32,025 nucleotides of DNA, taken from an uncultured Prochlorococcus sp. (GTDB lineage Bacteria; Cyanobacteriota; Cyanobacteriia; PCC-6307; Cyanobiaceae). Below the pieces are notes generated by a model, which was not told the origin of the DNA, ran no database searches, and saw nothing but the letters and a program-made list of their open reading frames with translations. This document shows positions 1 to 18,189 of the stretch, one piece after another. The stretch covers positions 1 through 32,025 of the forward strand of contig CACLGU010000018.1 of assembly GCA_902606505.1 (NCBI GenBank). The letters run 5' to 3'. Within the stretch, counting starts at the first letter, position 1. Each line of letters opens with the position of its first letter. The translations under genes were made by a program, and so were the position numbers.

Positions 1-1104
1 TGTAAGCTAGGAGCACCAATGGAATATATCGACGTTGGGGGAGGATTAGGGATAGATTTTGATGGAACTAAAACCTCCTCCAACACCTCTACTAATTATT
101 CTCTTCAAAATTATGCTAACGATGTAATTGCAACCATTAAAGATTCATGTGAATTAAATGATATCAAGCATCCAACCATAATTTCAGAAAGTGGAAGAGC
201 AATAATTAGTCATTGTTCAGTTTTAATTTTTAATGTCTTAGGAACAAGCCATGTCAATTCCAAGCTACAAATTTTGGATAAAAAAAATCAACAATTAATA
301 ATTTCAAATTTACTTGAAACTTTCTATGAATTAAAAAAACTTAAAAATAAAAAAATAAATTTATCTCAAATAATTGAACTATGGAATGATGCAAAAAAGT
401 TTAAAGAAGATTGCTTAGTTGCCTTTAGATTAGGATTTTTAAGTTTAGCGGAACGAGCTTATGCCGAAGAACTGACCTGGGCTTGCGCAAAAGAAATTTC
501 TAATAACCTGAATAATAATGAGATCAATCACCCTGATTTATCTGAAATCACAGAAACTCTTGCATCAACTTACTATGCAAATTTATCTATCTTTAAATCT
601 ATTCCCGATAGCTGGGCAATAAATCAGATTTTTCCAATAGTACCAATACATAGACATTTAGAGGAGCCTTTCTGCAAAGGCAACTTTGCAGATTTAACTT
701 GTGATTCAGATGGTAAGCTAAATAATTTTATTGATAATGGGAAAATTAAATCATTACTCAATTTACATAAGCCAGAGAAAGATAAAGATTATCTAATTGG
801 AATTTTTATGACTGGAGCCTATCAAGAAGCATTAGGAAACTTGCACAATTTATTTGGCAGTACAAACGTTGTTCATATAGATATAAATCAAGATAATTCA
901 TATAAGGTCAAAAATATTATTAAAGAGGACAGTAAATCTGAAATTTTACAATTATTAGATTACAGTTCAGCTTCTTTGGTTGAATCTATAAGAATTAATA
1001 CTGAATCAGCAATTGATCAAAAAAAATTAACTATTGAAGAAGCAAGAAAATTAATGGATCAAATCGAAATTAGTCTCAGAAAAAGCAGTTATTTATCAGA
1101 ATGA
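1..1104 (+). CDS. speA: Biosynthetic arginine decarboxylase, C-terminal part (5' end outside window)
   Basis: Arginine decarboxylase converts arginine to agmatine, the first step of polyamine synthesis in cyanobacteria, using PLP. The reading frame is open from base 1 (C-K-L-G-A-P-M-E-Y), so the gene enters from the left and the ATG at 19 is internal. About 367 residues are present, against roughly 640-650 for the family, so the N-terminal part of the PLP barrel is missing. Visible family features are the glycine-rich [11 protein letters not shown] loop near the edge and the SESGRA motif, followed by the helical and beta C-terminal region typical of biosynthetic SpeA. The 3' end overlaps the convergent alaS by 16 bp. 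Confidence 0.95.
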
Positions 1105-3749
1105 CCATCAAATGTTTTTTGTAAATGATTTTTAGCATAATCTAAAGCATCACTTAACTTATCAATATCTTTAGCACCTGCTTGAGCAAAGTTAGGCTTT
1201 CCTCCTCCTCCTCCTGAACAAATTCTTGCAATCTCATTAATTAATTTACCTGCATGCAATCCTATTTTTACTGCATCATCACCTAAAGAAACTACAAATA
1301 ACAACTTTCTATTTTCTGGATTTGGTATTCCCCCAAGAATCACTATTGCTTTATTTCCCAAATGAGAAGTTAAATAAAGTGCTGCAGATTGCAAAGAATT
1401 CCCATCTAAGCCATCAATCTGATTTACTAAAATTGAAAAAGAATTTACTATTTCTGCGGATGATTTTATAGAAGAGTACTTAAAAAATGCAATTTCATCT
1501 TTCATTTTTTGTATCTCTTTATTCTTATTGATAAGCTCTGCTTGCAAATTATTAACCCTCTCAAAAAGTTGATTAGGATTTGCTTTTAACAAATCACTTA
1601 GTTGATTTACTAAGGCATTTCTATCACTGAAATAGTCTAATGCTGATTGGCCTGATAATGCTTCGATTCTTCTTACTCCGGCTGAGATTCCTTCCTCACT
1701 AATTATTTTGAAAGAACCTAATTCGGATGTAGTTTTAACATGTGTGCCGCCACAAAGTTCCATTGAAACTCCTTGTACATTAACAACGCGCACTTCATCA
1801 TCATATTTTTCTCCAAACATGGCGACTGCTCCCTTTTCAAGAGCCTCACTCTTGGACATATTTTTTATTTCTAGTGCATGATTTTCCATAATCCAAGAAT
1901 TAACTAAAGTCTCAATCTTAGAAATTTGATCTTTAGAAATAGGATTAGAGGAATTAAAGTCAAATCGTAATTTGTTAAAGGCTACTAATGAACCTTTTTG
2001 TCCAACACTTTCATTAACGACTGATTTAAGTGCGGATTGTAATAAATGAGTAGCCGTATGATTTGCAGCAGCCTTAGTTCTATTAGAAGAGCTAACATTA
2101 GTCTTCACTTTTTGTCCAATAGTTAATATTCCTTTTTTGATCGTTCCATAATGTAAAAAAACATTTTTCTTTCTCACAACATTATCAACCAGAACCTCTA
2201 CATCTTTTGAAAATATCGTTCCAATATCACCAACTTGCCCGCCAGATTCTCCGTAAAAAGTTGTCTGATCAAGAACAATTAAAACTTTCTGGCCTTCACT
2301 TGCTTGCTTAACTAATGTTGAATCCAAGAATATACCCTTTATTTCAGCTTCTGAAATGAGTGAATCATAACCATTAAAAACAGTTTTTTTAAAAAGATCT
2401 ATTTCTCGCTCTAATGATCCCTCTAATGTCAAATCAATATTACTTGAAGCAGCTTTAGCTCTCTCTTTTTGTATATTCATTTCTTCTTCAAAACCCTTTA
2501 TATCTACACTGATCCTATTTTCTTCAGCAATTTCTACAGTAAGTTCTAGAGGAAATCCATAAGTATCATAAAGTTCAAAAGCTTTAAAACCAGAAATTAA
2601 TTTCTGTCCTGAAGAAATTAACTCATCTAGCAATTTCTCTCCTCTTTCAAGAGTTTCCCTAAATCTTATTTCTTCAATTTTTATCTCATTCAAAATTAAA
2701 TCATTATTATTTTTTAAATCAGGATAATTATTTTGCATTAAATTAATTCCGACAGAAGCAATATGAGGTAAAAATTCATTTGTTATACCTAATAATCTCC
2801 CATGTCTGACCATCCTTCTAATAAGCCTTCTTAGTATATATCCCCTGCCGAGATTACTTGCTGCTACTCCATCAGAAATTAAATGAATAACAGCTCTTGT
2901 ATGATCACCAATGATTTTTAAAGAAATTTTGTTTTTATCATCTGAAGAAAAATAATCAATATTAGCAATCTCACAAATTTTTTGAATGATAGGAAAAATT
3001 AAATCTGTCTCATAATTATTTTGCTTTTTTTGTAGTATTTGAGCCATCCTTTCAAGACCCATTCCTGTATCAATATTTTTAAATTTTAAATCTGTCAATT
3101 TTCCATTAGGATCACGATTATATTGCATAAAAACAAGATTATAAAATTCAATAAAACGATCTCCATCTTCTAAATCAATATTCTGCAGACCCTTTTCAGG
3201 GTGAAAATCATAATAAAGTTCTGAACAAGGTCCACATGGACCAGTTTTCCCGGACGACCAAAAATTATCTTCCTCTCCTAGTTTCACTATCCTATCTTGA
3301 TGAATACCAATTTCATCTCTCCAAATTTTTGCGGACTCTTCGTCTTCGTGATAAACACTCACAATTATATTTTCAACAGAAAGTTGATAAATATTAGTGA
3401 CTAATTCCCAAGCCCATTTAATGGCCTCTCGTTTAAAATAATCTCCAAAAGAGAAATTACCAAGCATTTCAAAAAAAGTGTGGTGTCTTGCTGTAACTCC
3501 AACGTTTTCTATATCGTTTGTTCTGATGCACTTTTGGCTAGATGTAGCCCTTTTGGATGGTCTACCTTTTAAACCTAAAAAAACTGGTTTAAAAGGTAGC
3601 ATTCCAGCAATTGTGAGCATAACCGTAGGGTCATCTGGAATTAAAGATGCACTTGGAATGATTTTATGTAATTTTTCACTATAAAATTTTAAAAAAGCAT
3701 TTCTTATCTCATCTCCAGTAACTATTTTTTTAATTAGTTGAGATGCCAT
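1089..3749 (-). CDS. alaS: Alanine--tRNA ligase
   Basis: Charges tRNA-Ala in the cytoplasm. The 886-residue length is normal for bacterial AlaRS. Domains in order: class II aminoacylation core (about 1-245, with the [20 protein letters not shown] motif 2 region at 87-105), tRNA-recognition helices (250-460), the editing domain with zinc-type ligands HTATH (H564, H568) and CGGTH (C666, H670), a short coiled coil (about 730-755), and the C-Ala domain with glycine run 846-850 followed by KPNFAQAG. All editing-site metal ligands are present, so mischarge correction should work. The gene is divergent from flv3 with 119 bp between, and its 3' end overlaps speA. Confidence 0.98.
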
Positions 3750-3784
3750 TTATCCAGAAAAAGAAGATTAAAAATTAAAGAAAA

Positions 3785-3819
3785 GCGTAATTTCGGTTAT
3801 TTCGCAAAAATAATCACGC
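3785..3819. promoter_or_regulatory. Divergent alaS/flv3 promoter region with imperfect inverted repeat
   Basis: The 119-bp spacer must hold the promoters of both alaS and the flv operon. GCGTAATT at 3785-3792 and AATCACGC at 3812-3819 form an imperfect inverted repeat (7 of 8 pairs, 19-bp loop), the only G/C-containing palindrome in otherwise AT-only DNA. TATATT at 3825-3830 is a possible -10 box for the flv operon. This could be an operator, but such matches are weak in AT-rich DNA. Confidence 0.3.
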
Positions 3820-3868
3820 GAATTTATATTCTATATAACTAAAGTTAATTTATAAAGCTAATTATTCT

Positions 3869-5644
3869 ATGATAGCCTCTGCCCAGACAAGTAATTCTAA
3901 ATTGGCACAAACTAATAATAAGTTGACGGTTCAATCTCAAAACTTTGCAAGTGATTCTTGTGCCATAAGATCTTTGGATTGGGATCGTAGTAGATTTGAT
4001 ATTGAATTTGGTTTAAGAAATGGAACTACTTACAATAGTTTTATTATTAAAGGCGAGAAATTAGCAATTATTGATACTAGTCACGCAAAGTTCGAAGAGT
4101 TATGGTTTGAAGAATTACTGAAAAAGGTAAACCCGCAAGAAGTTGATTATCTAATTACAAGCCATACAGAACCTGATCACTCTGGTTTAATAGGTAATCT
4201 TTTAGAACTAAACCAAAATATAACAGTAGTTGGATCAAAATTAGCCCTTAAATTTATTGAAGACCAAATACATATTCCCTTTAAGCGTCTAGAGGTTAAG
4301 AGTGGAGAGTTTTTAAACCTAGGAACTAATTCTAATAGCGGTTTAGAACACAATATTGAATTTATAAGTGCACCAAATTTACATTGGCCAGATACAATTT
4401 TTTCATATGATCACAGCACACATGTTCTCTATACATGCGATGCATTTGGACTCCATTATTGTTCTGACGAATTTTTTGACACTAATCAAAAAGAAATATT
4501 CGATGATTTCCGTTTTTATTACGATTGCCTTATGGGTCCAAACGCTAGAAGTGTTCTCCAAGCAATTAAAAGAATAGATAGGCTTCCTGAATTAAAAACA
4601 ATAGCTGTTGGTCATGGGCCTTTGCTCCATAATCAGGTCAATTTTTGGAAAGGGAAATATCTAGAATGGAGTAGCAACAAAAGCAAAGGTAATGATTTTG
4701 TATCAGTCTGCTATATAAGCGACTATGGTTATTGTGATCGACTAAGCCAAGCGATATCTCACGGAATAAGTAAAGCAGATGCACAGGTTCAATTAATTGA
4801 TTTAAGATCTTCTGAACCGCAAGAATTAACAAGTTTAATTTCCGAATCAAAAGCAGTAGTCATTCCGACATGGCCAGTTGACTCAGATAATGAATTAAAA
4901 GAATCCCTCGGCACTTTATTTGCAGCACTAAAACCAAAACAATTTACTGCTGTCTATGATGCATTTGGTGGAAATGACGAACCAATAGATTCCTTGGCAA
5001 ATAAATTAAGAGAACTTGGCCAAAAAGAAGCTTTCTCCCCTTTAAGAGTTAAAAATATTCCAGATCCAATTGTTTACCAACAATTCGAAGAAGCTGGAAC
5101 TGACTTGGGTCAACTTATTAATAAAAAGAAAAACATTGCCTCTATGAAGAGCCTTGATTCAAATCTAGATAAAGCGTTAGGTAGATTAAGTGGGGGATTA
5201 TATGTAGTTACAGCGAGCCAAGGGGAAGGTTCGACATTTAGACAAAGTGCAATGGTAGCAAGTTGGGTTAGTCAAGCAAGCTTTTCTCCACCAGGCATTA
5301 CAGTTGCAGTAGCAAAAGATAGAGCTATTGAATCATATATGCAAGTTGGTAAAGGTTTTGTTGTGAATATCTTAAGAGAAGATAACTATCAAAAAATGTT
5401 CAGACATTTTTTAAAAAGATTTGCCCCTGGAGCTGATAGATTTGCAGATGTAGATGTCATTAGCAACATCGCTGAAGGAGGGCCAGTTCTCTCAGATTCA
5501 CTCGCCTTTTTAGATTGTAAAGTTAGTTCCAGACTAGAGACTCCAGACCATTGGATAATTTACGGAATTGTTGAAAATGGTAATGTTTCTGACTTATCAT
5601 GCAAGACAGCAGTTCATCACAGAAAAGTTGCTAATCACTATTAG
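3869..5644 (+). CDS. flv3: Flavodiiron protein, Flv3-like (canonical diiron site)
   Basis: A-type flavodiiron proteins reduce O2 to water with electrons from the photosynthetic chain, protecting photosystem I under fluctuating light. The 591 residues carry the three-domain cyanobacterial layout: beta-lactamase-like diiron domain (about 30-265), flavodoxin-like domain (about 278-420) and C-terminal flavin-reductase domain (about 435-591). The diiron ligands are all visible: H99, E101, D103, H104 (in SHTEPDH), H172 (LHWPD), D191 (CDAFG) and H249 (GHGP). This separates it from its neighbour and supports Flv3 rather than Flv1. In contrast its FMN loop is degenerate (SDYGYCDR at 284-291, versus the usual YGNT). 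It is first in an operon with flv1 16 bp downstream; the two are expected to form a heteromer. Confidence 0.9.
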   Translation: MIASAQTSNSKLAQTNNKLTVQSQNFASDSCAIRSLDWDRSRFDIEFGLRNGTTYNSFIIKGEKLAIIDTSHAKFEELWFEELLKKVNPQEVDYLITSHTEPDHSGLIGNLLELNQNITVVGSKLALKFIEDQIHIPFKRLEVKSGEFLNLGTNSNSGLEHNIEFISAPNLHWPDTIFSYDHSTHVLYTCDAFGLHYCSDEFFDTNQKEIFDDFRFYYDCLMGPNARSVLQAIKRIDRLPELKTIAVGHGPLLHNQVNFWKGKYLEWSSNKSKGNDFVSVCYISDYGYCDRLSQAISHGISKADAQVQLIDLRSSEPQELTSLISESKAVVIPTWPVDSDNELKESLGTLFAALKPKQFTAVYDAFGGNDEPIDSLANKLRELGQKEAFSPLRVKNIPDPIVYQQFEEAGTDLGQLINKKKNIASMKSLDSNLDKALGRLSGGLYVVTASQGEGSTFRQSAMVASWVSQASFSPPGITVAVAKDRAIESYMQVGKGFVVNILREDNYQKMFRHFLKRFAPGADRFADVDVISNIAEGGPVLSDSLAFLDCKVSSRLETPDHWIIYGIVENGNVSDLSCKTAVHHRKVANHY

Positions 5645-9973: not shown

Positions 9974-10081
9974 AAAACTTATACTTTTTTAAGCAATTAT
10001 TCCATTTAATATAATCTTAAATAAGAAATTTATTTTTTCATAATTATACTAACTCAGATAGTTAAAAAATATCAAAAAAAA

Positions 10082-10690
10082 TTAATTTAATTGATCTGTA
10101 TTTTGTTCAAAATAAGGATTACAACTATTCTTTGATATCCCTAAAGACCATCCAATAAATGAAGAAATAAATATCGTTACTATTAAAGGCAAAATGGCTT
10201 GTTGAGTGTTTACAAGACTAAACCATTCCCTCCAGCTACTAAAAAATCTTTCTCTTTGAAATTTTCTTCTTTCATTTTCTAATAATCTCGCTTTTTTGGC
10301 GAAGGATTTTGTTACCCACTTCTCGAAAGGAATCTTTTTTATAATCGCCATTTTTCTCTCCACTTCTAATAATTGTCCGGAACTAAGATAAGGATGAAAT
10401 GTACTTATCAATTCAAGAGTTTTTAAAAACATTTCAACAGTTGCATCTTTTATGAGCTTTTGCTCATGACTTAAATCAGCCCACTCTATTTCTGGATAAA
10501 AACGGTTCCTGTTTGCTGAAATTTGATCATCTGACATTTGACCAGGTTCTCTGAGCCATCTATTAGTATTTTCGTCAAATCTCCGCCAATATAAAAAAGG
10601 ATTTATAAAAATTGTTTTACCAGATACTTTGACTACATCTTGTTGAAGATGATTAGTTATCTTTCTTTCAGAATTTTTCGATTTTATCAA
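10082..10690 (-). CDS. Conserved-type hypothetical protein with one C-terminal TM segment
   Basis: A 202-residue protein of unknown function. The N-terminal part contains a tryptophan-rich segment (YWRRFDENTNRWLREPGQMS, about 34-53), a helical middle (about 75-135) and a very basic stretch with many Arg/Lys (129-147). A single hydrophobic segment (about 165-185, AILPLIVTIFISSFIGWSLG) is followed by a short polar tail, so it looks tail-anchored with the basic domain in the cytoplasm. It lies 108 bp upstream of the small ORF and 81 bp from the nuclease gene, both on the same strand. I recognise no family; the composition is that of a real chromosomal gene. Confidence 0.75.
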   Translation of the reverse strand: MIKSKNSERKITNHLQQDVVKVSGKTIFINPFLYWRRFDENTNRWLREPGQMSDDQISANRNRFYPEIEWADLSHEQKLIKDATVEMFLKTLELISTFHPYLSSGQLLEVERKMAIIKKIPFEKWVTKSFAKKARLLENERRKFQRERFFSSWREWFSLVNTQQAILPLIVTIFISSFIGWSLGISKNSCNPYFEQNTDQLN

Positions 10691-10771
10691 AAGTCTAAAT
10701 TAATAATCTAATTAAAGATTATCTTTTATTCGCTACTTTTCCAGAAATATGAAAAAATTATCCTATAAATA

Positions 10772-11485
10772 TTAAGTTAATGATAACTGCCAACGCTTCT
10801 TTAAATAATTACAGTATTCGCAATTTAAGGAAGGTTTGGGGAAATTATCCGAACGCAATAAATTTACAATATCAATTATCTTTTTTTCTACCCATGAAGT
10901 AGAACAATCTAATTTAATTAGATGAACGTCAAAATTTAATTGGTTATTAAATAACTCTTCATTTTTCTTTCCATTGAAATATAAAAGATAAGCTTCTTTA
11001 GCTACTTGAAAACCGTTTTTTTTAAATAACCACTGATACATTTCTAATTGTCTCTTATAAGCTTTTGCATATTCGTATTTATTAAAAGTCTCTGACCAAT
11101 CAAAATTATTTCTAGATGTTGCTTTTACATCAACAATAATGAGATCACCATTGTTTTTCTGCCAAATATCATCTACTGCTCCACCAAAATCATAATTATA
11201 TTCAATTGACTTATATCTTATCCCTTGAAAATTACTTCTCCAACGTTCTAAATCTTTGTGTTTAAAAGGAATAGCATCAATACCATGTTCAGTGAATAAA
11301 GGATGAGGCTCCTGAATTTTTCTGTAATAATCAAATTCATTTTTACATAAATTGTCTACAGCAATATTTAAAGTAAATGGTAATGATGGTGGTTTTATTT
11401 GATATTTTTTGTCAAGTACGCAACATCTTGGACAACTAATATATTTCTCAACAGTAGATCGACTTAATTTAATAATCTCGCCCAT
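10772..11485 (-). CDS. PD-(D/E)XK nuclease superfamily protein (RecB/Cas4-like) with Cys cluster
   Basis: A 237-residue single-domain nuclease of the RecB/Cas4 type. The core is visible: GGAVDDIW (101-108, metal-binding acidic residue D105 or D106), LIIVDVKATS (115-124, D119 and K121 of the D-x-K motif) and QLEMY (146-150, the QxxxY motif of RecB-family nucleases). Cysteines at 18, 21 and 22 near the N-terminus and 222 and 225 near the C-terminus match the arrangement that holds a 4Fe-4S cluster in Cas4 and AddB. No cas gene or CRISPR array is nearby, so a DNA-repair or processing role is more likely than adaptation. It borders the accessory sulfotransferase region on its upstream side. Confidence 0.8.
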   Translation of the reverse strand: MGEIIKLSRSTVEKYISCPRCCVLDKKYQIKPPSLPFTLNIAVDNLCKNEFDYYRKIQEPHPLFTEHGIDAIPFKHKDLERWRSNFQGIRYKSIEYNYDFGGAVDDIWQKNNGDLIIVDVKATSRNNFDWSETFNKYEYAKAYKRQLEMYQWLFKKNGFQVAKEAYLLYFNGKKNEELFNNQLNFDVHLIKLDCSTSWVEKKIIDIVNLLRSDNFPKPSLNCEYCNYLKKRWQLSLT

Positions 11486-11540
11486 TTTATTTAAATCTCA
11501 TTTCAAAGCTTTTTTGCCTAAAAAGTTTAAACTCATCCCT

Positions 11541-11663
11541 TCAATTATGTAAATCAAACATGCTTGTTGATTAGTTTCTGGAGAATTCGTTAGAAATTGC
11601 AATTAAATTAAATCTTTATTTAACTAAGAAAACTTTAAAAAAAAATTTTGTAAAGACTATACT
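11541..11663 (+). promoter_or_regulatory. Promoter region of TPR-sulfotransferase A, shared with paralogue B
   Basis: This block matches DNA upstream of the second paralogue: ATTATGTAAATC (11544-11555 here, 13495-13506 there) and GAGAATTCGTTAG (11581-11593 here, 13531-13543 there), in the same order. TATACT at 11658-11663 is a -10 box that lines up with the TATAAT of the paralogue and sits 28 bp before the chosen ATG. No good -35 box is seen. Confidence 0.5.
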
Positions 11664-11691
11664 AGCTTTGAAGAAATTATCTTTATTAAAA

Positions 11692-13176
11692 ATGAAAGGT
11701 TTTGGCGAAAAGAACCAATCAAAGAAAGAAAAAATTTCAAAAAATAAACAGAAAGTAAATGCCGGCCAATTGATTAAAAAAGCATTTGATCTACAGTCAC
11801 AAGGACGGAAGTTAGAAGCAGCAAAATACTATGAATATCTTATTAAACAAGGAATAAAAGACTATAAAGTTTTTTCTAATTATGGAATATTCCTTAACGA
11901 GATCGGAAAACATAAAGAATCAGAATCAAAACTTAAAAAAGCAATTTCTCTAAATCCTGACTATGCAAATGCTTACTACAATCTTGCCGTTTTATTCATA
12001 GGTCAAGGAAATTTGGGGAAAGCAGAATTAGAACTCAAAAAAGCAATTAAACTTCAACCAGACTTTGCTATTGCTCACTACAATCTTGGATTCATATTAA
12101 AAGATCAAGGTAGATTAAAAGAGGCAGAGTCATATACTCAAAAAGCACTTGAAGTTGATCCTCAATTAACTGATGCATATTTATCACTATCAACTATACA
12201 AACAAGTAAAACAACTCAAAAATGGCATAATCAACTTTTTTCTGAAAATATTTTAAAAAATAAAAACAATAGAGAGTTAGTGAATATTTTTTTCGCAAGA
12301 TCAAATATTTTTCATAGAAAAGGACAATATGAAGAAAGTGCTGAGAATCTTATTAATGCAAATAATATGAAACTTAGAATGCATAAATCTGAAGTAGATT
12401 TATTAATTGATAAAACTAAAAAATTAAAAATATCCTCAGATAATTATGAAAGCAATAATCAAAAATTTGAAAATTATTCAATGACCATTTTTATAGTAGG
12501 TTTGCCTAGATGCGGTTCTACCCTTGTCGAATCAATAATAAGTTTAAATACTAAAGTAAAAGATCTTGGAGAAGTTAATATCTTTGAAGAATCATATAGA
12601 GAATATAAACAATCTGAAAAACGAAAAAACCTTAGCGAGATATATTGGAAAAAACTAGAAATAACAGATAAAAAAACAATCACAACAAACAAGTGGTTAT
12701 TTAATTATCAATATGCAGGCATTATTGCCAAAGCAATTCCAAATGCAAAAATAATACATTGTTATAGAAATCCTTTAGATAACATTCTTTCAACTTATAG
12801 AGCACATTTCGCAACAGGGAATTATTTCTCTTCTAGTTTGGTTGATTCTGCCGAAGTCTATTCTGATCAAGATGAGATTATGAGAACATATACGAAAGAA
12901 TTTAAAAATCATATATATTCATTAAATTATGATAAGTTAGTGGCTAATCCCTCAGATGAAATAAAATCCTTGATTCGTTGGTTAGGTTGGAGCTGGAATG
13001 ATTTATATTTATCACCACATTTAAATAAACGTATAATCTCAACAAGAAGTAATGTTCAGGTTCGTTCGCCAATTAACACAAAATCTTTAGGAGGATGGAA
13101 AAACTACAAAGAGATGCTTAAACCTGCGATGGAAATAATTACTAAAAAGGATAAATATAAAGACCTTAAATACTAA
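11692..13176 (+). CDS. TPR-repeat sulfotransferase family protein, copy A
   Basis: The 494-residue protein joins about four tetratricopeptide repeats (roughly 26-163; for example ANAYYNLAVLFIGQGNLGKA) to a PAPS-dependent sulfotransferase domain. The 5'-phosphosulfate loop is GLPRCGSTL (270-278) and the 3'-phosphate motif is CYRNPLDN (357-364). The enzyme should move sulfate from PAPS to an unknown acceptor; the TPRs may bind a protein or glycan partner. No signal peptide is seen. A TTG at 11668 would add eight residues, but it lies only 5 bp after the putative -10 box, and the paralogue begins MKGFGE at an ATG, so I take the ATG at 11692. The loop has Cys where the paralogue has Ser (PRSGSTL). 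It lies next to the guaA-associated repeat region. Confidence 0.85.
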   Translation: MKGFGEKNQSKKEKISKNKQKVNAGQLIKKAFDLQSQGRKLEAAKYYEYLIKQGIKDYKVFSNYGIFLNEIGKHKESESKLKKAISLNPDYANAYYNLAVLFIGQGNLGKAELELKKAIKLQPDFAIAHYNLGFILKDQGRLKEAESYTQKALEVDPQLTDAYLSLSTIQTSKTTQKWHNQLFSENILKNKNNRELVNIFFARSNIFHRKGQYEESAENLINANNMKLRMHKSEVDLLIDKTKKLKISSDNYESNNQKFENYSMTIFIVGLPRCGSTLVESIISLNTKVKDLGEVNIFEESYREYKQSEKRKNLSEIYWKKLEITDKKTITTNKWLFNYQYAGIIAKAIPNAKIIHCYRNPLDNILSTYRAHFATGNYFSSSLVDSAEVYSDQDEIMRTYTKEFKNHIYSLNYDKLVANPSDEIKSLIRWLGWSWNDLYLSPHLNKRIISTRSNVQVRSPINTKSLGGWKNYKEMLKPAMEIITKKDKYKDLKY

Positions 13177-13258
13177 TCAAGAAATAAATTATTCATCTAA
13201 AGAAAGCATATGCTGTGAAAACGACTAAACCTCGACAATGACTTACAAATTGTTGTGG

Positions 13259-13281
13259 AACTACTCTAACTTTATAGTACC
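13259..13281 (-). repeat. Degenerate copy of guaA 3' end (old attachment-site-like repeat)
   Basis: This 23-bp stretch matches the guaA terminus at 15434-15456 at 18 of 23 positions. On the minus strand it reads G-T-I-K-L-E-stop where guaA ends G-T-I-E-W-E-stop. The bases to its left (ACTAAACC... from 13223) also resemble the sequence just beyond the guaA stop (ACTAAACC... from 15398), so similarity extends about 60 bp. Confidence 0.6.
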
Positions 13282-13397
13282 GAGAAATAAGGCAGTGATA
13301 AACGTAGTGATACCAGCATGTTTGAAACCATAATAACACACACATGTTCCCACTAGAAACCTATTTTTTGTGTCTATATCTACACTTTAACCCTATT

Positions 13398-13420
13398 AAC
13401 TATTCCCACTCAATAGTTCC
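13398..13420 (-). repeat. Near-perfect copy of guaA 3' end (attachment-site-like repeat)
   Basis: This 23-bp stretch matches 15434-15456 at 22 of 23 positions, including a 17-bp identical core TCCCACTCAATAGTTCC. On the minus strand it still encodes G-T-I-E-W-E-stop; the one change is synonymous (GAG to GAA). It stands alone in a spacer, with an in-frame stop four codons before it, so it is not part of a gene. Similarity ends abruptly on both sides, as expected for a recombination core rather than a gene-sized duplication. Confidence 0.8.
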
Positions 13421-13460
13421 ATTGCTCTAATCCCGCACTACGACAGGGGTGGATTTTGCG

Positions 13461-13481
13461 TGACAAACCTATGACAAACCA
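13461..13481 (+). repeat. Paired TGACAAACC repeat, 11-bp phase (pair 1)
   Basis: TGACAAACCT at 13461 and TGACAAACCA at 13472 are direct repeats exactly 11 bp apart. The 20 bases 13459-13478 are identical to 15316-15335. The pair lies about 40 bp inside the left guaA-end copy. Confidence 0.7.
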
Positions 13482-13597
13482 ACTTATTCCTAACATTATG
13501 TAAATCCAACTCATTGTTGAACTAATTGTAGAGAATTCGTTAGTAAATACAAAATTTTTACATTTAGAAAGTAATATCCCAGAATTTTTAAAGATAC

Positions 13598-13603
13598 TAT
13601 AAT
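13598..13603 (+). promoter_or_regulatory. -10 box of TPR-sulfotransferase B
   Basis: A perfect TATAAT, 30 bp upstream of the ATG at 13634. It aligns with the TATACT of copy A when the two genes are aligned at MKGFGE, which supports it as a functional element inherited by both copies. The region 13495-13543 repeats upstream DNA of copy A. No convincing -35 box is present. Confidence 0.5.
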
Positions 13604-13633
13604 CAACACTAAGTTGAAAATTATTTCTCGGAA

Positions 13634-15217
13634 ATGAAAGGTTTTGGAGAACAGAATAAATTTAAAAAGAAAGTCAATAAGATAACTACTCCTTCCAAAG
13701 AGAAAATAATTAATCAAGCATTTTTATTTCATTCACAAGGAAATATTAGAGAAGCAGAAATATACTATAAATATTGTGTTGATCAAAAAATAAATGACTA
13801 TAGAGTATATTCAAATTATGGTCTTATATTAAAAAACAAAGGAAATTTAAAGGAAGCAGAAATATCTCTCAAAAAAGCAATACAGTTAAATCCCAACTGG
13901 TCCGAAGGGCACAATAATATTGGAACTATACAAAAAGATCTAAGAAAATTTTCCGAAGCAAAAATATCTTTGAGAAAAGCAATTGAACTTGATGCTAACT
14001 CAGTAAATGCTCACTGTAATCTTGGAAATATTCTACGAGAATTAAAAAATTTTCAAGAAGCAGAGATATATCTGAGAAAAGTAATCGAACTTGATCCTAA
14101 TTCGACACTTGGATATGCGAATTTAGGAGATATGTTAAAAACTATTGGAAGATTAAAAGAAGCAAAAATATTACTTATAAAAACAATTGAAATTAATCCT
14201 AACTTTGTAAAACCATATTTTGCATTATCAAAACTTCAATATGAAATTTCTGACAAAAAATGGCATAAATATTTATTTTCTGAACAATTTTTAAATAAAA
14301 AAAATGATAGAGAAAAAATCAATATCTATTTTTCGAGATCTAACATCCGTCACAAAGAAAAAAAATATTATGAGAGTTCTAAGAACCTCCAACTTGCAAA
14401 TAAATTAAAACTTTCACTTTACTCTTCTGAATGCAATTTGCTTATTAATAAATCACAAACTCTACTTAAAGAATCAGAAAAAAATAAGCAAATTGACAAT
14501 TCTAAATCGTATTATCCTATGAGTATTTTCATTATAGGAATGCCCAGAAGTGGAAGTACTTTAGTTGAATCTATTTTAAGTATCAATAAGAAACTGAAAG
14601 ATTGCGGGGAAATTAATATCTTGGAAAAAGCATATATAACAAGCAGAAAATTTAATCAAAAAAAGAGTCTTGCGGATTTATATATGCAAGAACTTAATCA
14701 GTTGTTTAAAGAATTCAGCATCACAACTAATAAATGGTTATATAACTATCAATATTCTGGAATAATTGCTAATGAAATACCAAATTGTAAAATTATACAT
14801 TGTTTTAGAAATCCTCTAGATAATATTCTCTCAATTAACAGAGCAAATTTCGAAAGAGGTAATTACTATTCTTCTTCATTGATTGATTCTGCAAAAGTTT
14901 ATTTAGATCAAGAACAAATAATGAGTATCTACAAAGATAAATTCCGCCAAAAGATTTATGATCTGAATTATGATTTATTAGTGAAGAATCCACATAAAGA
15001 GATTCAATCATTAATAAATTGGTTGGGATGGAAATGGAATACTTCTTATTTATCCCCTGAATTAAATGAAAGAGAAGTATATACAGCAAGTAATGTTCAA
15101 GTCCGTTCCCCAATAAATTCAAAATCAATTGGTGGATGGAAAAACTATAAAGAAATGCTCAGACCTGCTATGGAAGTCATCACTAAAAAGGATAAATTTA
15201 AAAACCTAAGTTATTAA
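13634..15217 (+). CDS. TPR-repeat sulfotransferase family protein, copy B
   Basis: A 527-residue paralogue of copy A, with the same order: basic N-terminus (MKGFGEQNKFKKK), a TPR array (about 25-195, one repeat more than copy A), a helical linker, and a PAPS-dependent sulfotransferase domain with PSB loop MPRSGSTL (303-310) and 3'-phosphate motif CFRNPLDN (390-397). The last 45 residues (SNVQVRSPIN...GGWKNYKEML) are nearly the same as in copy A. The acceptor is unknown. There is no signal peptide, so a cytoplasmic role, such as sulfating a lipid- or nucleotide-linked glycan precursor, is one possibility but unproven. The gene is flanked by guaA-end repeats and paired TGACAAACC repeats and appears to be cargo. 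Confidence 0.85.
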   Translation: MKGFGEQNKFKKKVNKITTPSKEKIINQAFLFHSQGNIREAEIYYKYCVDQKINDYRVYSNYGLILKNKGNLKEAEISLKKAIQLNPNWSEGHNNIGTIQKDLRKFSEAKISLRKAIELDANSVNAHCNLGNILRELKNFQEAEIYLRKVIELDPNSTLGYANLGDMLKTIGRLKEAKILLIKTIEINPNFVKPYFALSKLQYEISDKKWHKYLFSEQFLNKKNDREKINIYFSRSNIRHKEKKYYESSKNLQLANKLKLSLYSSECNLLINKSQTLLKESEKNKQIDNSKSYYPMSIFIIGMPRSGSTLVESILSINKKLKDCGEINILEKAYITSRKFNQKKSLADLYMQELNQLFKEFSITTNKWLYNYQYSGIIANEIPNCKIIHCFRNPLDNILSINRANFERGNYYSSSLIDSAKVYLDQEQIMSIYKDKFRQKIYDLNYDLLVKNPHKEIQSLINWLGWKWNTSYLSPELNEREVYTASNVQVRSPINSKSIGGWKNYKEMLRPAMEVITKKDKFKNLSY

Positions 15218-15243
15218 TCTAAGAATATTTTGTAATTAAGATC

Positions 15244-15287
15244 AACAAAATAAAAAACAAATTGTAGAGAAAACCACTACTCTACGA
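15244..15287 (-). terminator. Possible guaA transcription terminator
   Basis: GTAGAG (15264-15269) and CTCTAC (15280-15285) form a stem, extendable by one U-G and one U-A pair, with a 10-base loop. Read on the minus strand it is followed by a T-rich run (complement of 15244-15261). That orientation and a position about 150 bp past the guaA stop fit a guaA terminator. The stem is short and AT-rich, so this is tentative. Confidence 0.4.
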
Positions 15288-15300
15288 TTTCTCAACAGAG

Positions 15301-15316
15301 AAAGTGCCAAAGTGCC
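15301..15316 (+). repeat. Tandem 8-mer AAAGTGCC x2
   Basis: Two back-to-back copies of AAAGTGCC end where the second TGACAAACC pair begins. Its role is unknown; it is part of the repeat-rich spacer between sulfotransferase B and guaA. Confidence 0.6.
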
Positions 15317-15317
15317 G

Positions 15318-15338
15318 TGACAAACCTATGACAAATAG
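15318..15338 (+). repeat. Paired TGACAAACC repeat, 11-bp phase (pair 2)
   Basis: TGACAAACCT at 15318 and TGACAAATAG at 15329, 11 bp apart; the second half is degenerate at its end. The 20 bases 15316-15335 are identical to 13459-13478. Confidence 0.7.
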
Positions 15339-15377
15339 AGGGTCGAAACCCCAGTAAAATCGTATCTCTAATCTACT

Positions 15378-15398
15378 TGATAAACCTGTGACAAACCA
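15378..15398 (+). repeat. Paired TGACAAACC repeat, 11-bp phase (pair 3)
   Basis: TGATAAACCT at 15378 and TGACAAACCA at 15389, again 11 bp apart. This pair is 36 bp beyond the guaA terminus copy and keeps the spacing of the other two pairs although its bases differ. Confidence 0.65.
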
Positions 15399-15433
15399 CT
15401 AAACCCGCACTATGACTGACAAAATGCCCGTAG

Positions 15434-15456
15434 AACTACTCCCACTCAATAGTTCC
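15434..15456 (-). repeat. guaA 3' terminus, parent of the attachment-site-like repeats
   Basis: These are the last codons and stop of the intact guaA plus two further bases. They are repeated at 13398-13420 (22/23) and 13259-13281 (18/23) in the same orientation. Divergence grows with distance from guaA, as expected for successive insertions at this site. Confidence 0.75.
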
Positions 15457-17022
15457 TGGAGGTTTGCTCGTAATATCATAAACAACTCTATTTACTGAAA
15501 TTACTTCATTTACAATTCTATTTGCAATCCTCTCCAAAATCTGAAAAGGAATTTTTGACCAATCGGCTGTCATGCCATCTTCACTAGATACACAACGTAA
15601 AACTATTGGCCATGCATAAGTCCTTTTATCTCCCATAACTCCTACAGTTTTAACCGGTAGCAATACTGCAAAAGCTTGCCAAATATCATTGTAAAGACCA
15701 GCTTTTTTAATTTCGTCTCTTACTATCCAATCTGCATCTCTTAAACAATCAAGTTTTTCATTATTCACCTCTCCCAAAATTCTTATAGCTAAACCCGGGC
15801 CTGGGAATGGATGCCTTTTGATGATTTCATTCGGCAAACCTAGGGCAGCGCCGACTTTTCGGACTTCATCCTTAAAAAGTTTTCTTAATGGCTCAACTAA
15901 TTTAAATTGTAAATCTTTTGGCAATCCACCCACGTTATGATGACTCTTAATTTTTACAGCTATTCTTTCACCAGTCTTAGGATCAATATTAGTACCAGCA
16001 CTTTCAATAACATCAGGATAAAGAGTACCTTGAGCCAAATATTGAAAAGGTCCCAATCTATTGCTTTCTTCTTCAAATACTCTAATAAATTCTTCACCAA
16101 TAATTTTCCTTTTTTGTTCTGGATCAGTAATCCCTTTTAATTTGGCAATGAACCTTTCCCTTGCATTAATGTATTGAACTTTAATGTGAAATTTATTATC
16201 AAAAAAATTCATTAAAAATTCTGGTTCACCTTTTCTCATGAAACCTTGGTCAATAAACATGCATGTAAGCTGATTTCCAATTGCTCTATTAAGAAGAAAA
16301 GCAAGGGTTGAAGAATCCACTCCTCCTGACAAGGCAAGCAAAACTTTTTTATTACCAACTTGCTCTCTTATCCTAGGAATAGTTTCCTCTATATATTTTT
16401 CGGTTGTCCAATCAGCCTCACAACTAGAAATTTTATAAACAAAATTTTTAATTATCGTCATCCCAAACTCTGAATGTATAACTTCAGGATGAAATTGTAC
16501 GCCAAATAATTTCTTTACATCATTTGAAATTGCTGCATGGAGTGTGTTCTCAGTATGAGCAATTTTATTAAATCCATCAGGCAAACAATTAATTGAATCG
16601 CCATGACTCATCCACATTATAGATTTATCTTCAACATCAAAAAGGAGGTCAGATTCTTGATCTATATTAATTGGTGCTCTACCATATTCAGCTTTTTTGG
16701 TTGCTGAAATAACGGACCCTCCAAGTTCTTTGACCATTAATTGCATTCCATAGCATATGCCAAGAATAGGAATTCCTAAATTAAAAATTTTTTCATCACA
16801 TTTCGGAGCATTTTGTTCATATACAGAATTTGGGCCTCCACTAAGAATGATCCCTTTAGGATTAATATCATTAATGTCCTCAATTGAAATACAATTACTT
16901 ACTACAAGAGAAAAAACATTAGTTTCTCGAATTCGTCTTGCAATCAATTCAGAATATTGAGATCCGAAATCTAAAATTAATATTGAAGGATCTCGTTCTT
17001 TTTTGAAAGATGTTTGACTCAT
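15436..17022 (-). CDS. guaA: GMP synthase (glutamine-hydrolysing)
   Basis: Converts XMP to GMP with ATP and glutamine, the last step of guanine nucleotide synthesis. The 528-residue length is normal. The N-terminal class I glutamine amidotransferase domain has the nucleophile C90 in GICYGMQL and the catalytic H178 and E180 in QFHPEV. The ATP-pyrophosphatase domain has the P-loop SGGVDS (232-237), and the C-terminal dimerisation domain ends KPPGTIEWE. The gene appears intact even though its 3' end is the parent of the repeats in the neighbouring accessory region; an inserting element that carries the same terminal codons would leave the protein unchanged. It lies 48 bp downstream of cbiD on the same strand. 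Confidence 0.98.
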
Positions 17023-17070
17023 GTATAAAAGTTAGCTCAATTTATTTGCAAAAGCATAATGAATCACAAA

Positions 17071-18189
17071 TTAATCTTGTTTAAAATAAGAAATATACTT
17101 ATTACCGTAAATTCCAGCCCACCTAATTTTCCTTTTTCTATCAAAAATGATTGATGCAATTTCCATATCAGTTTTTACATACCTATTTACATAAGTTAAA
17201 GAACGCTTTTCAATCATATGGGATAAATTATGGAATAATTTATCAGCTAAAGATTGATTAAATCTTTCAAGAAGTTGTAATGCATCCTCTAGATTATGTA
17301 ACTGAGATAATTCAAATAATTTTTCAGGTGGTACCTTTTCTTGAACGGCTAAATAAACAAGAATCTCAATTCTTGCATCAGCTAAATGATTATGTGTATG
17401 AAAAATACCGCCAGCTAATTTAATTAATTTTCCGTGATAACCAAAAAGAATTACAGTTTTAACTTTTTTTATTGCAGCTTCTACTAATAGTGGCCCTATC
17501 CAATTTCCAATTTTAATAATTGGTAAATTAACATTATAAGTTTTTGCCAAATTTAACCCATTTTCACCAATAACAAAAACAACTTCCCCTTTAAAATCTT
17601 TTTTAATTAACTTTGCCAGATTAGTTTTAGCCTTTTCTAATTGATCAGGTGAAGCACTCGAATAAGTCTCAGCCGAAGTACCAATAATAGATAATCCATC
17701 AACGATACCGAATGACTTATTACTAGTTCTTTCCGCTAAAAAAGCCCCCTTTGGAAAAATAATTTCTAGTTTCAAATTAAAGCCCTCAGGAATAATATCT
17801 AATAAATTTTGATATAAAACTTCTTTTGCAAAATTAGAAATACATATCTCTGATGTATCTTCTTTTACACCTACACCAGATCCTGCAATAATATTTATTG
17901 GAATTGTTGGAACAGGATTGTTAAAAGAAATTTTTTCTAAAGAGGCTATTGCCCATATTTCTAAGTTTTGTGTTATGTCGAGATCTAAGCCTGACTTTGC
18001 AAAGGTAATTCCTAACGCATGCGAGTTATCTTTAAGTAAACCAACAGAATGAATCTCGATTTTTATTTCTTTTTTTTCATTAGGAATTTTTATTAGTTCA
18101 TAATTCTCAAATGTTAACCCTACTAGTTTTTTTAATGCTGACCTAGCAGCTCCAGCAACCCACAAAGGTAAAGAAAATCCTTTTTTCAA
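17071..18189 (-). CDS. cbiD: Cobalt-precorrin-5B C1-methyltransferase
   Basis: CbiD methylates C1 of cobalt-precorrin-5B in the anaerobic branch of corrin-ring synthesis, consistent with picocyanobacteria making pseudocobalamin. The 372-residue protein has the family N-terminus (GFSLPLWVAGAARSAL, 4-19), the glycine loop IIAGSGVGVKEDTSEICIS, and a conserved histidine region (GYHGKLIKLAGGIFHTHNHLADAR) near residue 250-270. The start is a TTG at 18189; an in-frame stop (TAG) lies eleven codons upstream and no ATG or GTG is available between. It diverges from the aminotransferase gene with 60 bp between, and no cobalamin riboswitch is visible there. Confidence 0.92.
   Translation of the reverse strand: MKKGFSLPLWVAGAARSALKKLVGLTFENYELIKIPNEKKEIKIEIHSVGLLKDNSHALGITFAKSGLDLDITQNLEIWAIASLEKISFNNPVPTIPINIIAGSGVGVKEDTSEICISNFAKEVLYQNLLDIIPEGFNLKLEIIFPKGAFLAERTSNKSFGIVDGLSIIGTSAETYSSASPDQLEKAKTNLAKLIKKDFKGEVVFVIGENGLNLAKTYNVNLPIIKIGNWIGPLLVEAAIKKVKTVILFGYHGKLIKLAGGIFHTHNHLADARIEILVYLAVQEKVPPEKLFELSQLHNLEDALQLLERFNQSLADKLFHNLSHMIEKRSLTYVNRYVKTDMEIASIIFDRKRKIRWAGIYGNKYISYFKQD

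Follow-up and report, generated by a model that had tools for sequence, protein, structure and literature searches.

How does a protein-coding gene come to be followed by graded copies of its own last bases? The question is raised by a 32,025-nucleotide stretch of DNA from an uncultured Prochlorococcus (contig CACLGU010000018.1 of assembly GCA_902606505.1; hereafter the window), one contig of a 69-contig, 1.25-Mb genome that is 76% complete, in which the 3' end of guaA, the gene for GMP synthase, occurs three times in one orientation. The routes by which flexible genes reach Prochlorococcus, one of the most abundant phototrophs, are still an open question. Those routes that appear in the available text of PMC10872708 and PMC10187409 lead to tRNA genes. 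Layered site-specific insertion at guaA is well supported, and we consider it very probable that the locus holds stacked cassettes flanked by attachment (att) sites, likely inserted one after another and likely by a recombinase supplied in trans from rarer elements. This reading rests on a flank that is shared by empty and by differently filled sites, on cores that recur, on iterons that match between the ends of a cassette, on cassette homology that stops at the cores, and on a recombinase family whose genes lie near guaA. The cassette layers at guaA differ from cell to cell in Prochlorococcus. The stack in the window comprises three layers, a sulB cassette, a gene-less 139-bp mini-unit and a sulA cassette without its outer end, listed here from guaA outward.

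15436..17022, minus strand: guaA (GMP synthase), the target gene, intact (Pfam GATase and GMP_synt_C; open reading frame (ORF) list)
15434..15456, minus strand: core copy 1, the present guaA 3' end, attL-like, with the putative crossover block GAGTGGGA within it
13421..15433: innermost cassette, B, bounded by the cores at 13398-13420 and 15434-15456; sulB is its sole clear gene, and it has no integrase
15376..15396, minus strand: left-end iteron pair 1 of cassette B (GTTTGTCACAGGTTTATCAAG), about 40 bp from the guaA stop
15316..15336, minus strand: left-end iteron pair 2 of cassette B (ATTTGTCATAGGTTTGTCACG), about 100 bp from the guaA stop
15286..15295, minus strand: conserved left-end motif TTGAGAAATC, which fits RAGARRTC
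13634..15217, plus strand: sulB, a TPR-sulfotransferase of 527 aa, cargo of cassette B (Pfam Sulfotransfer_3 and TPR)
13459..13479, minus strand: right-end iteron pair of cassette B (GTTTGTCATAGGTTTGTCACG), a 10/11 match to its own left iteron
13398..13420, minus strand: core copy 2 (22/23), a putative displaced guaA end separating cassette B from the mini-unit
13282..13397: interior of the gene-less mini-unit (139 bp from core to core), a degenerate unit whose left and right ends are fused
about 13349-13361: the one iteron remnant in the mini-unit
13259..13281, minus strand: core copy 3 (18/23), a putative displaced guaA end separating the mini-unit from cassette A
11486..13258: outermost cassette, A, left end kept and right end lost (the right end is intact in L081)
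11668..13176, plus strand: sulA, a TPR-sulfotransferase of 502 aa, cargo of cassette A (Pfam Sulfotransfer_3 and TPR)
10772..11485, minus strand: PDDEXK nuclease gene, a conserved chromosomal neighbour (Pfam PDDEXK_1)

The three copies match the guaA end at 23/23 (15434-15456), 22/23 (13398-13420) and 18/23 (13259-13281), in the places and orientation given to them by an earlier reading made from the letters alone (the sequence-only reading); the translations of the two outer copies, read by eye, also have the coding sense it reported, G-T-I-E-W-E-stop and G-T-I-K-L-E-stop. A chance origin is ruled out, because the next best match in the 32-kb window is 16/23 and shuffled 23-mers (n = 1,000) give a mean of only 0.003 sites of at least 18/23 per window, 18 being attained by 3 of the 1,000. 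Nothing on the opposite strand reaches 16. A scan of the window's own genome at up to three mismatches returned 15434-15456 and 13398-13420 alone; the third copy has five. The repeat extends beyond 23 bp, the copies being the cores of longer attachment-site-like ends with 11-bp iterons, found in the window at 15376-15396, 15316-15336 and 13459-13479. The sequence-only reading also held that divergence rises with distance from guaA; the match counts do fall outward, but decay explains only part of this. The sole mismatch of the middle copy (GGGAATAG) is a common left-end variant, and two of the five mismatches in the outermost copy (GGTACTATA for GGAACTATT) recur in L015, L026 and L041 as the core variant that goes with this right-end family. 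Element polymorphism, not age, accounts for part of the divergence of the outer copies. No tRNA gene was found in the window, and no RNA family reached the gathering threshold at 10000-17500.

Relatives show the same site in other states. We took from a species-level genome collection its 80 best guaA loci, almost all of them under the name Prochlorococcus. In 24 of the 80 the site is empty, with the nuclease gene starting 44-115 bp after a lone guaA end, and the other 56 bear inserts with many unrelated cargos. The sequence-only reading had anticipated both states, and instead of one spacer with the same copies in all relatives, we find empty and differently filled sites on one flank. The filled sites are closed at the nuclease gene in 41 cases, with 195-7,837 bp between it and guaA, and in the other 15 the contig ends within the insert; one such open insert (L070) extends to 16.9 kb in a longer stretch of the same locus (L149), and the shortest (L010) has a left end recognisable by eye. 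Among 18 extra genomes chosen for few contigs, 7 sites are empty and 11 filled. For L154, L161 and L167, no nuclease gene turned up in the stretch examined. The clearest comparison sets L021 and L052, which are empty, beside L024, L026 and L044, which are filled with 7.8, 4.7 and 1.3 kb of differing DNA: the downstream flanks of the filled loci score 90, 88 and 90 of 90 against L021, and a guaA-end copy immediately precedes this common flank in each. On a guaA tree of 81 rows, at least 19 changes between empty and filled are needed, 13 of them forced by well-supported branches, against a mean of 21.1 when labels are shuffled (77 or 69 of 500 shuffles were as low as the observed 19), so occupancy hardly follows descent.

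The junctions also suggest where recombination takes place. Compared position by position, the guaA-linked ends of filled sites match empty sites through GGGA and diverge afterwards, and displaced copies differ upstream and agree with the chromosome downstream. L026 (GGTACTATAGAG in its displaced copy) and L044 (GGGAATAG at guaA) narrow the common block to GAGTGGGA, the probable crossover block as deduced from these junctions. The same 8 bp, GAGTGGGA, are given as the cutting site of guaA islands in other bacteria (Song et al. 2012, as cited in the available part of PMC7775301).

The order of the layers can be read from what relatives share. The window's sulA cassette is 93.7% identical to that of L152, 91.6% to that of L029 and 90.1% to that of L081. 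Homology with L152 begins at the displaced core in both (offset 2883 in L152, 13281 in the window), and with L029 it begins 7 bp before the displaced core. Between this cassette and guaA the layers differ among the window, L152 and L029, though about 0.8 kb of the middle unit of L152 resembles part of cassette B at 70%. In L081, a divergent relative with guaA at 81.1%, the sulA cassette keeps the right end and core that the window has lost. The outermost layer, beside the nuclease gene, is the shared and likely the oldest one, because relatives hold the sulA cassette in common under different inner layers. This arrangement supports the proposal of the sequence-only reading that repeated insertion restores guaA and pushes older copies outward: each event would rebuild the gene and displace the earlier guaA-end copies.

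The ends of the cassettes have a common architecture. Inserts hold 54 further cores of at least 16/20 in the guaA orientation and none in reverse complement, where shuffled cores lead one to expect 0.08. Tandem 11-bp iteron pairs (at least 9/11) adjoin the cores: of 95 stretches on the left side 49 have one, as do 48 of the 63 on the right side, and no period but 11 in the range 6-15 is comparable. Their spacing is tight: 45 of the 49 left pairs begin 36-42 bp past the start of the stop codon, and all 48 right pairs lie 62-102 bp ahead of the next core. A first left pair near +40 occurs in many cassettes and in most integrase-bearing loci, and most of the latter have a second near +101. Of 51 left ends, 27 contain the motif RAGARRTC, in every case but one at +133 to +169; the mean for shuffled sequence is 0.4. 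Outward from guaA, the plan of a cassette is core, about 40 bp, an iteron pair, in many cases a second pair some 60 bp further out, frequently a AGAGAAATC-like motif, cargo, and a right iteron pair 62-102 bp before the next core; cassette B in the window follows it, with two left pairs, motif and right pair. At 15286-15295 in the window and in those 27 of 51 left ends, this conserved stretch is palindrome-like (for example TCTCTATAGAGAAATCGTAGAG); it follows the left iterons and comes before the integrase gene where there is one. In other genera, 6 of 25 loci have a period-11 pair of at least 9/11 after guaA, though a few of the 25 hold little sequence there.

The iteron sequence itself varies (TTTCACGTG, TTTCCCTCAG, TTTGTCACG, TTTTACGTG, TTACACGTG, TTTGTTGCG, ATCACACAC and CTCACCC are examples), and the two ends of a cassette tend to agree. 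In the 26 cassettes that reach 180 bp and have, at each end, a pair matching at 8/11 or more, iterons agree at 10.2/11 within a cassette and 8.0 between cassettes, a difference reached in 0 of 20,000 permutations. The plan also recurs in its smallest form. Relatives carry gene-less mini-units of 130-148 bp, in which a left end meets a right end and no more than one iteron pair is present. A 140-bp mini-unit used as a query has matches in 52 of 200 genomes, and 13 near-full-length copies begin directly after the guaA stop. Those compared by eye on contigs with a listed guaA lie downstream of it; several others are on contigs with no listed guaA and so have no placement relative to it. Deletion from larger cassettes accounts for mini-units only in part, as the left end of the TGACGG mini family is not found on any large cassette among the ends listed.

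A candidate for the enzyme is a tyrosine recombinase family whose members, in all 13 strong loci, are located 0.2-1.0 kb from guaA, and which is found in only 5 of 266 Prochlorococcus genomes. No integrase was detected in the window's cassettes by ORF list, Pfam or family profile. Run against 81 insert regions, the family profile matched only L023, L070 and L078, and we therefore count no integrase at the site in the remaining regions. PF00589 is the only Pfam match of the L023 and L078 integrases (no search was aimed at AlpA), and the L023 integrase has no match among solved-structure sequences at E 0.1. The protein shows tyrosine recombinase core and catalytic domains, and a separate N-terminal domain is predicted, the lambda rows aligning from residue 13; in L116 (residues 1-97) this is a strand-rich fold with one long helix and a predicted local distance difference test score (pLDDT) of 81. 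Lambda integrase binds its arm sites through its N-terminal domain. By analogy, the guaA recombinase would bind the iterons, probably by its predicted N-terminal domain, recombine at GAGTGGGA, and act in trans on cassettes that do not encode it. Near these integrases, a Resolvase domain is present in L023 and L146, and small serine recombinase look-alike ORFs were recognised by eye in L144, L145, L147, L148 and L150. By eye, the integrase-bearing elements L144-L148 and L150 also hold ORFs of about 320 aa that look alike, and the one compared with databases (L147:5614-6582) has no match in Pfam, PHROGs or NCBIfam.

Cassettes shared between hosts bear on whether such mobilisation in trans takes place. 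L059 and L152 share an integrase-less cassette that is 97.5% identical over 1,167 bp, from guaA stop to core; their guaA genes are 92.1% identical (89% over the final 200 bp), and past the core the DNA is unrelated (24/60). A further cassette is 96.6-97.1% alike in L003, L032 and L074, where guaA is 87.1-90.7% alike, and its inner neighbour is nothing, a mini-unit and a 0.8-kb cassette, respectively. These comparisons suggest that integrase-less cassettes are mobilised by a recombinase supplied in trans. It is unlikely, by our estimate, that the cassettes are instead dead remnants of integrase-bearing islands, with the integrase deleted and the rest inherited vertically or reshuffled by homologous recombination with no trans mobilisation. 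Such remnants fit poorly with integrase-less cassettes that are more identical between hosts than the adjoining guaA, with the sharp edges of the L059/L152 cassette at guaA and core, with the L003/L032/L074 cassette behind different inner layers, and with left and right iterons that still match in integrase-less cassettes.

Several observations nonetheless weigh in favor of remnants, or more generally against the main reading. Of 62 cassette pairs, 17 are more similar than the corresponding guaA genes and 45 are not; cassette A in the window has lost one end; cores and iterons are degenerate in many units; and integrase fragments persist in L121/L151, L122, L128 and L134. The recombinase family has no match in the window's own genome at its 76% completeness, and no helper with TTTGTCA iterons was seen. 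The N-terminal domain, folded alone, has no clear match among solved structures, with no integrase listed, which lowers the odds of an arm-binding domain a little. No circular or viral form of a cassette was found, and the sampled loci are biased toward close relatives and draft genomes. The searches for viral carriage gave 0 matches by pattern scan and none by phage protein search, and integrase scans matched 3 and 38 stretches, none of them a relative; L206 and L207, picked up by a degenerate core pattern, have no iterons on inspection. Among the integrase fragments, those of L122, L128 and L134, from other genera, are N-terminal and adjoin TPR/sulfotransferase genes. In G283 the fragment lies about 17 kb downstream of guaA.

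An integron-like system, in which an integron integrase captures cassettes through folded attC sites, would also give an array of small cassettes by a fixed site, with variable content and repeated recombination sites, but a mobile integron has its integrase at a fixed attI platform, where here only L023, L070 and L078 of the 81 insert regions match the family profile, and we regard this explanation as highly improbable. Least probable of all is tandem duplication of a guaA-end and sulfotransferase unit, which we rejected. sulA and sulB are indeed related (71% DNA identity over 300 bp), but genes just 71% alike sit beside a 22/23 copy, the mini-unit has no gene, L152 and L029 have the sulA cassette and lack the sulB cassette of the window, and relatives have empty sites and unrelated cargos between the same cores on one flank.

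Stacked insertion of cassettes would make guaA a point of entry for varied genes. In a sample of cargo proteins given to Pfam, we found an acyltransferase-SGNH protein, a carbamoyltransferase with asparagine synthase and M20 peptidase, type I restriction-modification, D12 methylase, HNH nuclease, MreB and a DnaB C-domain; 16 of the 56 filled relatives have genes akin to sulA or sulB (100 bits or more), and the window has two. Surface and defence traits are likely exchanged at guaA, because the cargo spans sulfotransferases, acyltransferase, a type I restriction system, DNA methylase and an extra MreB. The restriction-modification cargo of L024 (offsets 732-5586 from the guaA end) has methylase and specificity domains in one ORF. 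The extra MreB is carried by divergent Prochlorococcus (L077, L079 and L080, with Pfam for L080; L157 and L168 by DNA similarity). A 60-aa ORF (MKLFNQFN...) occupies the right end, within the last ~550 bp before the core, of nine cassettes with different cargo (L013, L015, L019, L024, L026, L059, L152, L154 and L164). We rejected it as a cassette-specific directionality factor; near-identical copies lie tens of kb from guaA, and it is therefore treated as cargo.

The guaA locus adds a protein-gene site with a readable history, in which each layer has its own ends and close relatives present empty, mini and filled states; gene gain and loss could be traced at base resolution in many single-cell genomes. 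A broader proposal, whose chances we put a little short of even, is that a single-site gene-capture system, distinct from integrons, is shared by marine picocyanobacteria: the matched 11-bp iterons at the two ends of each cassette would be its address code, and visiting integrases would load, stack and exchange the cassettes at the guaA end. If so, one essential gene would be a population-wide docking port for surface-modifying and defence genes, with minimal cassettes that range down to gene-free units of ~139 bp.

Known systems share parts of this design. In the cis-mobilisable elements (CIMEs) of streptococci and the tandem staphylococcal cassette chromosome (SCC) elements, recombinase-less elements keep their att ends and accumulate at one gene end. 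Intact guaA cassettes are like CIMEs in having att sites at both ends, no recombinase gene and tandem accretion (cassette A has lost one end); they differ from CIMEs and SCC in that the units are much smaller, gene-less mini-units recur, and element-specific iteron pairs mark both ends. That the guaA 3' end is an island site in other bacteria, as the sequence-only reading stated, accords with the guaA islands with GAGTGGGA in the available part of PMC7775301. One described there, ICERspD18B, is a 28.5-kb conjugative guaA island with its own P4-type integrase and AlpA. The cassettes share with it insertion at the guaA 3' end and direct repeats containing GAGTGGGA, whereas most inserts here have no detected integrase, often hold one or two genes and form tandem stacks, and the rare integrase shows PF00589 only.

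Within Prochlorococcus, the tycheposons (Hackl et al. 2023, as given in PMC10872708 and PMC10187409; available parts) use tRNA genes as sites, seven of which are mentioned, and are 4-200 kb long. Compared by description, they are alike in host, cargo, tyrosine recombinase and use of a gene end; the site here is guaA, no tRNA gene occurs in the window or in 19 integrase-hit loci scanned with flanks of 1.5 kb, and the smallest units measure 130-139 bp. A picocyanobacterial integrase element, beside tRNA-Phe or tRNA-Cys as far as PMC10187409 was available, is likewise found in marine Prochlorococcus and Synechococcus, with a tyrosine integrase, variable cargo and a small serine recombinase nearby (a frequent feature, not a constant one); by description it is set apart from the family beside guaA in 13/13 loci. 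An additive island of Methylophilaceae at tRNA-Lys (PMC10872708) is also marked by recurring copies of the target's end, there its last 20 bp. It has a tRNA target and belongs to another phylum, and the available part of that paper describes neither iterons nor an integrase link. No guaA island of Prochlorococcus is among the literature matches listed, though one may still figure in Hackl et al. 2023. Judged from the accessible portions of these sources, the cassette array is a new form of integrative element at guaA, guaA islands with GAGTGGGA were already known (PMC7775301), and the logic of the array is close to that of cis-mobilisable elements.

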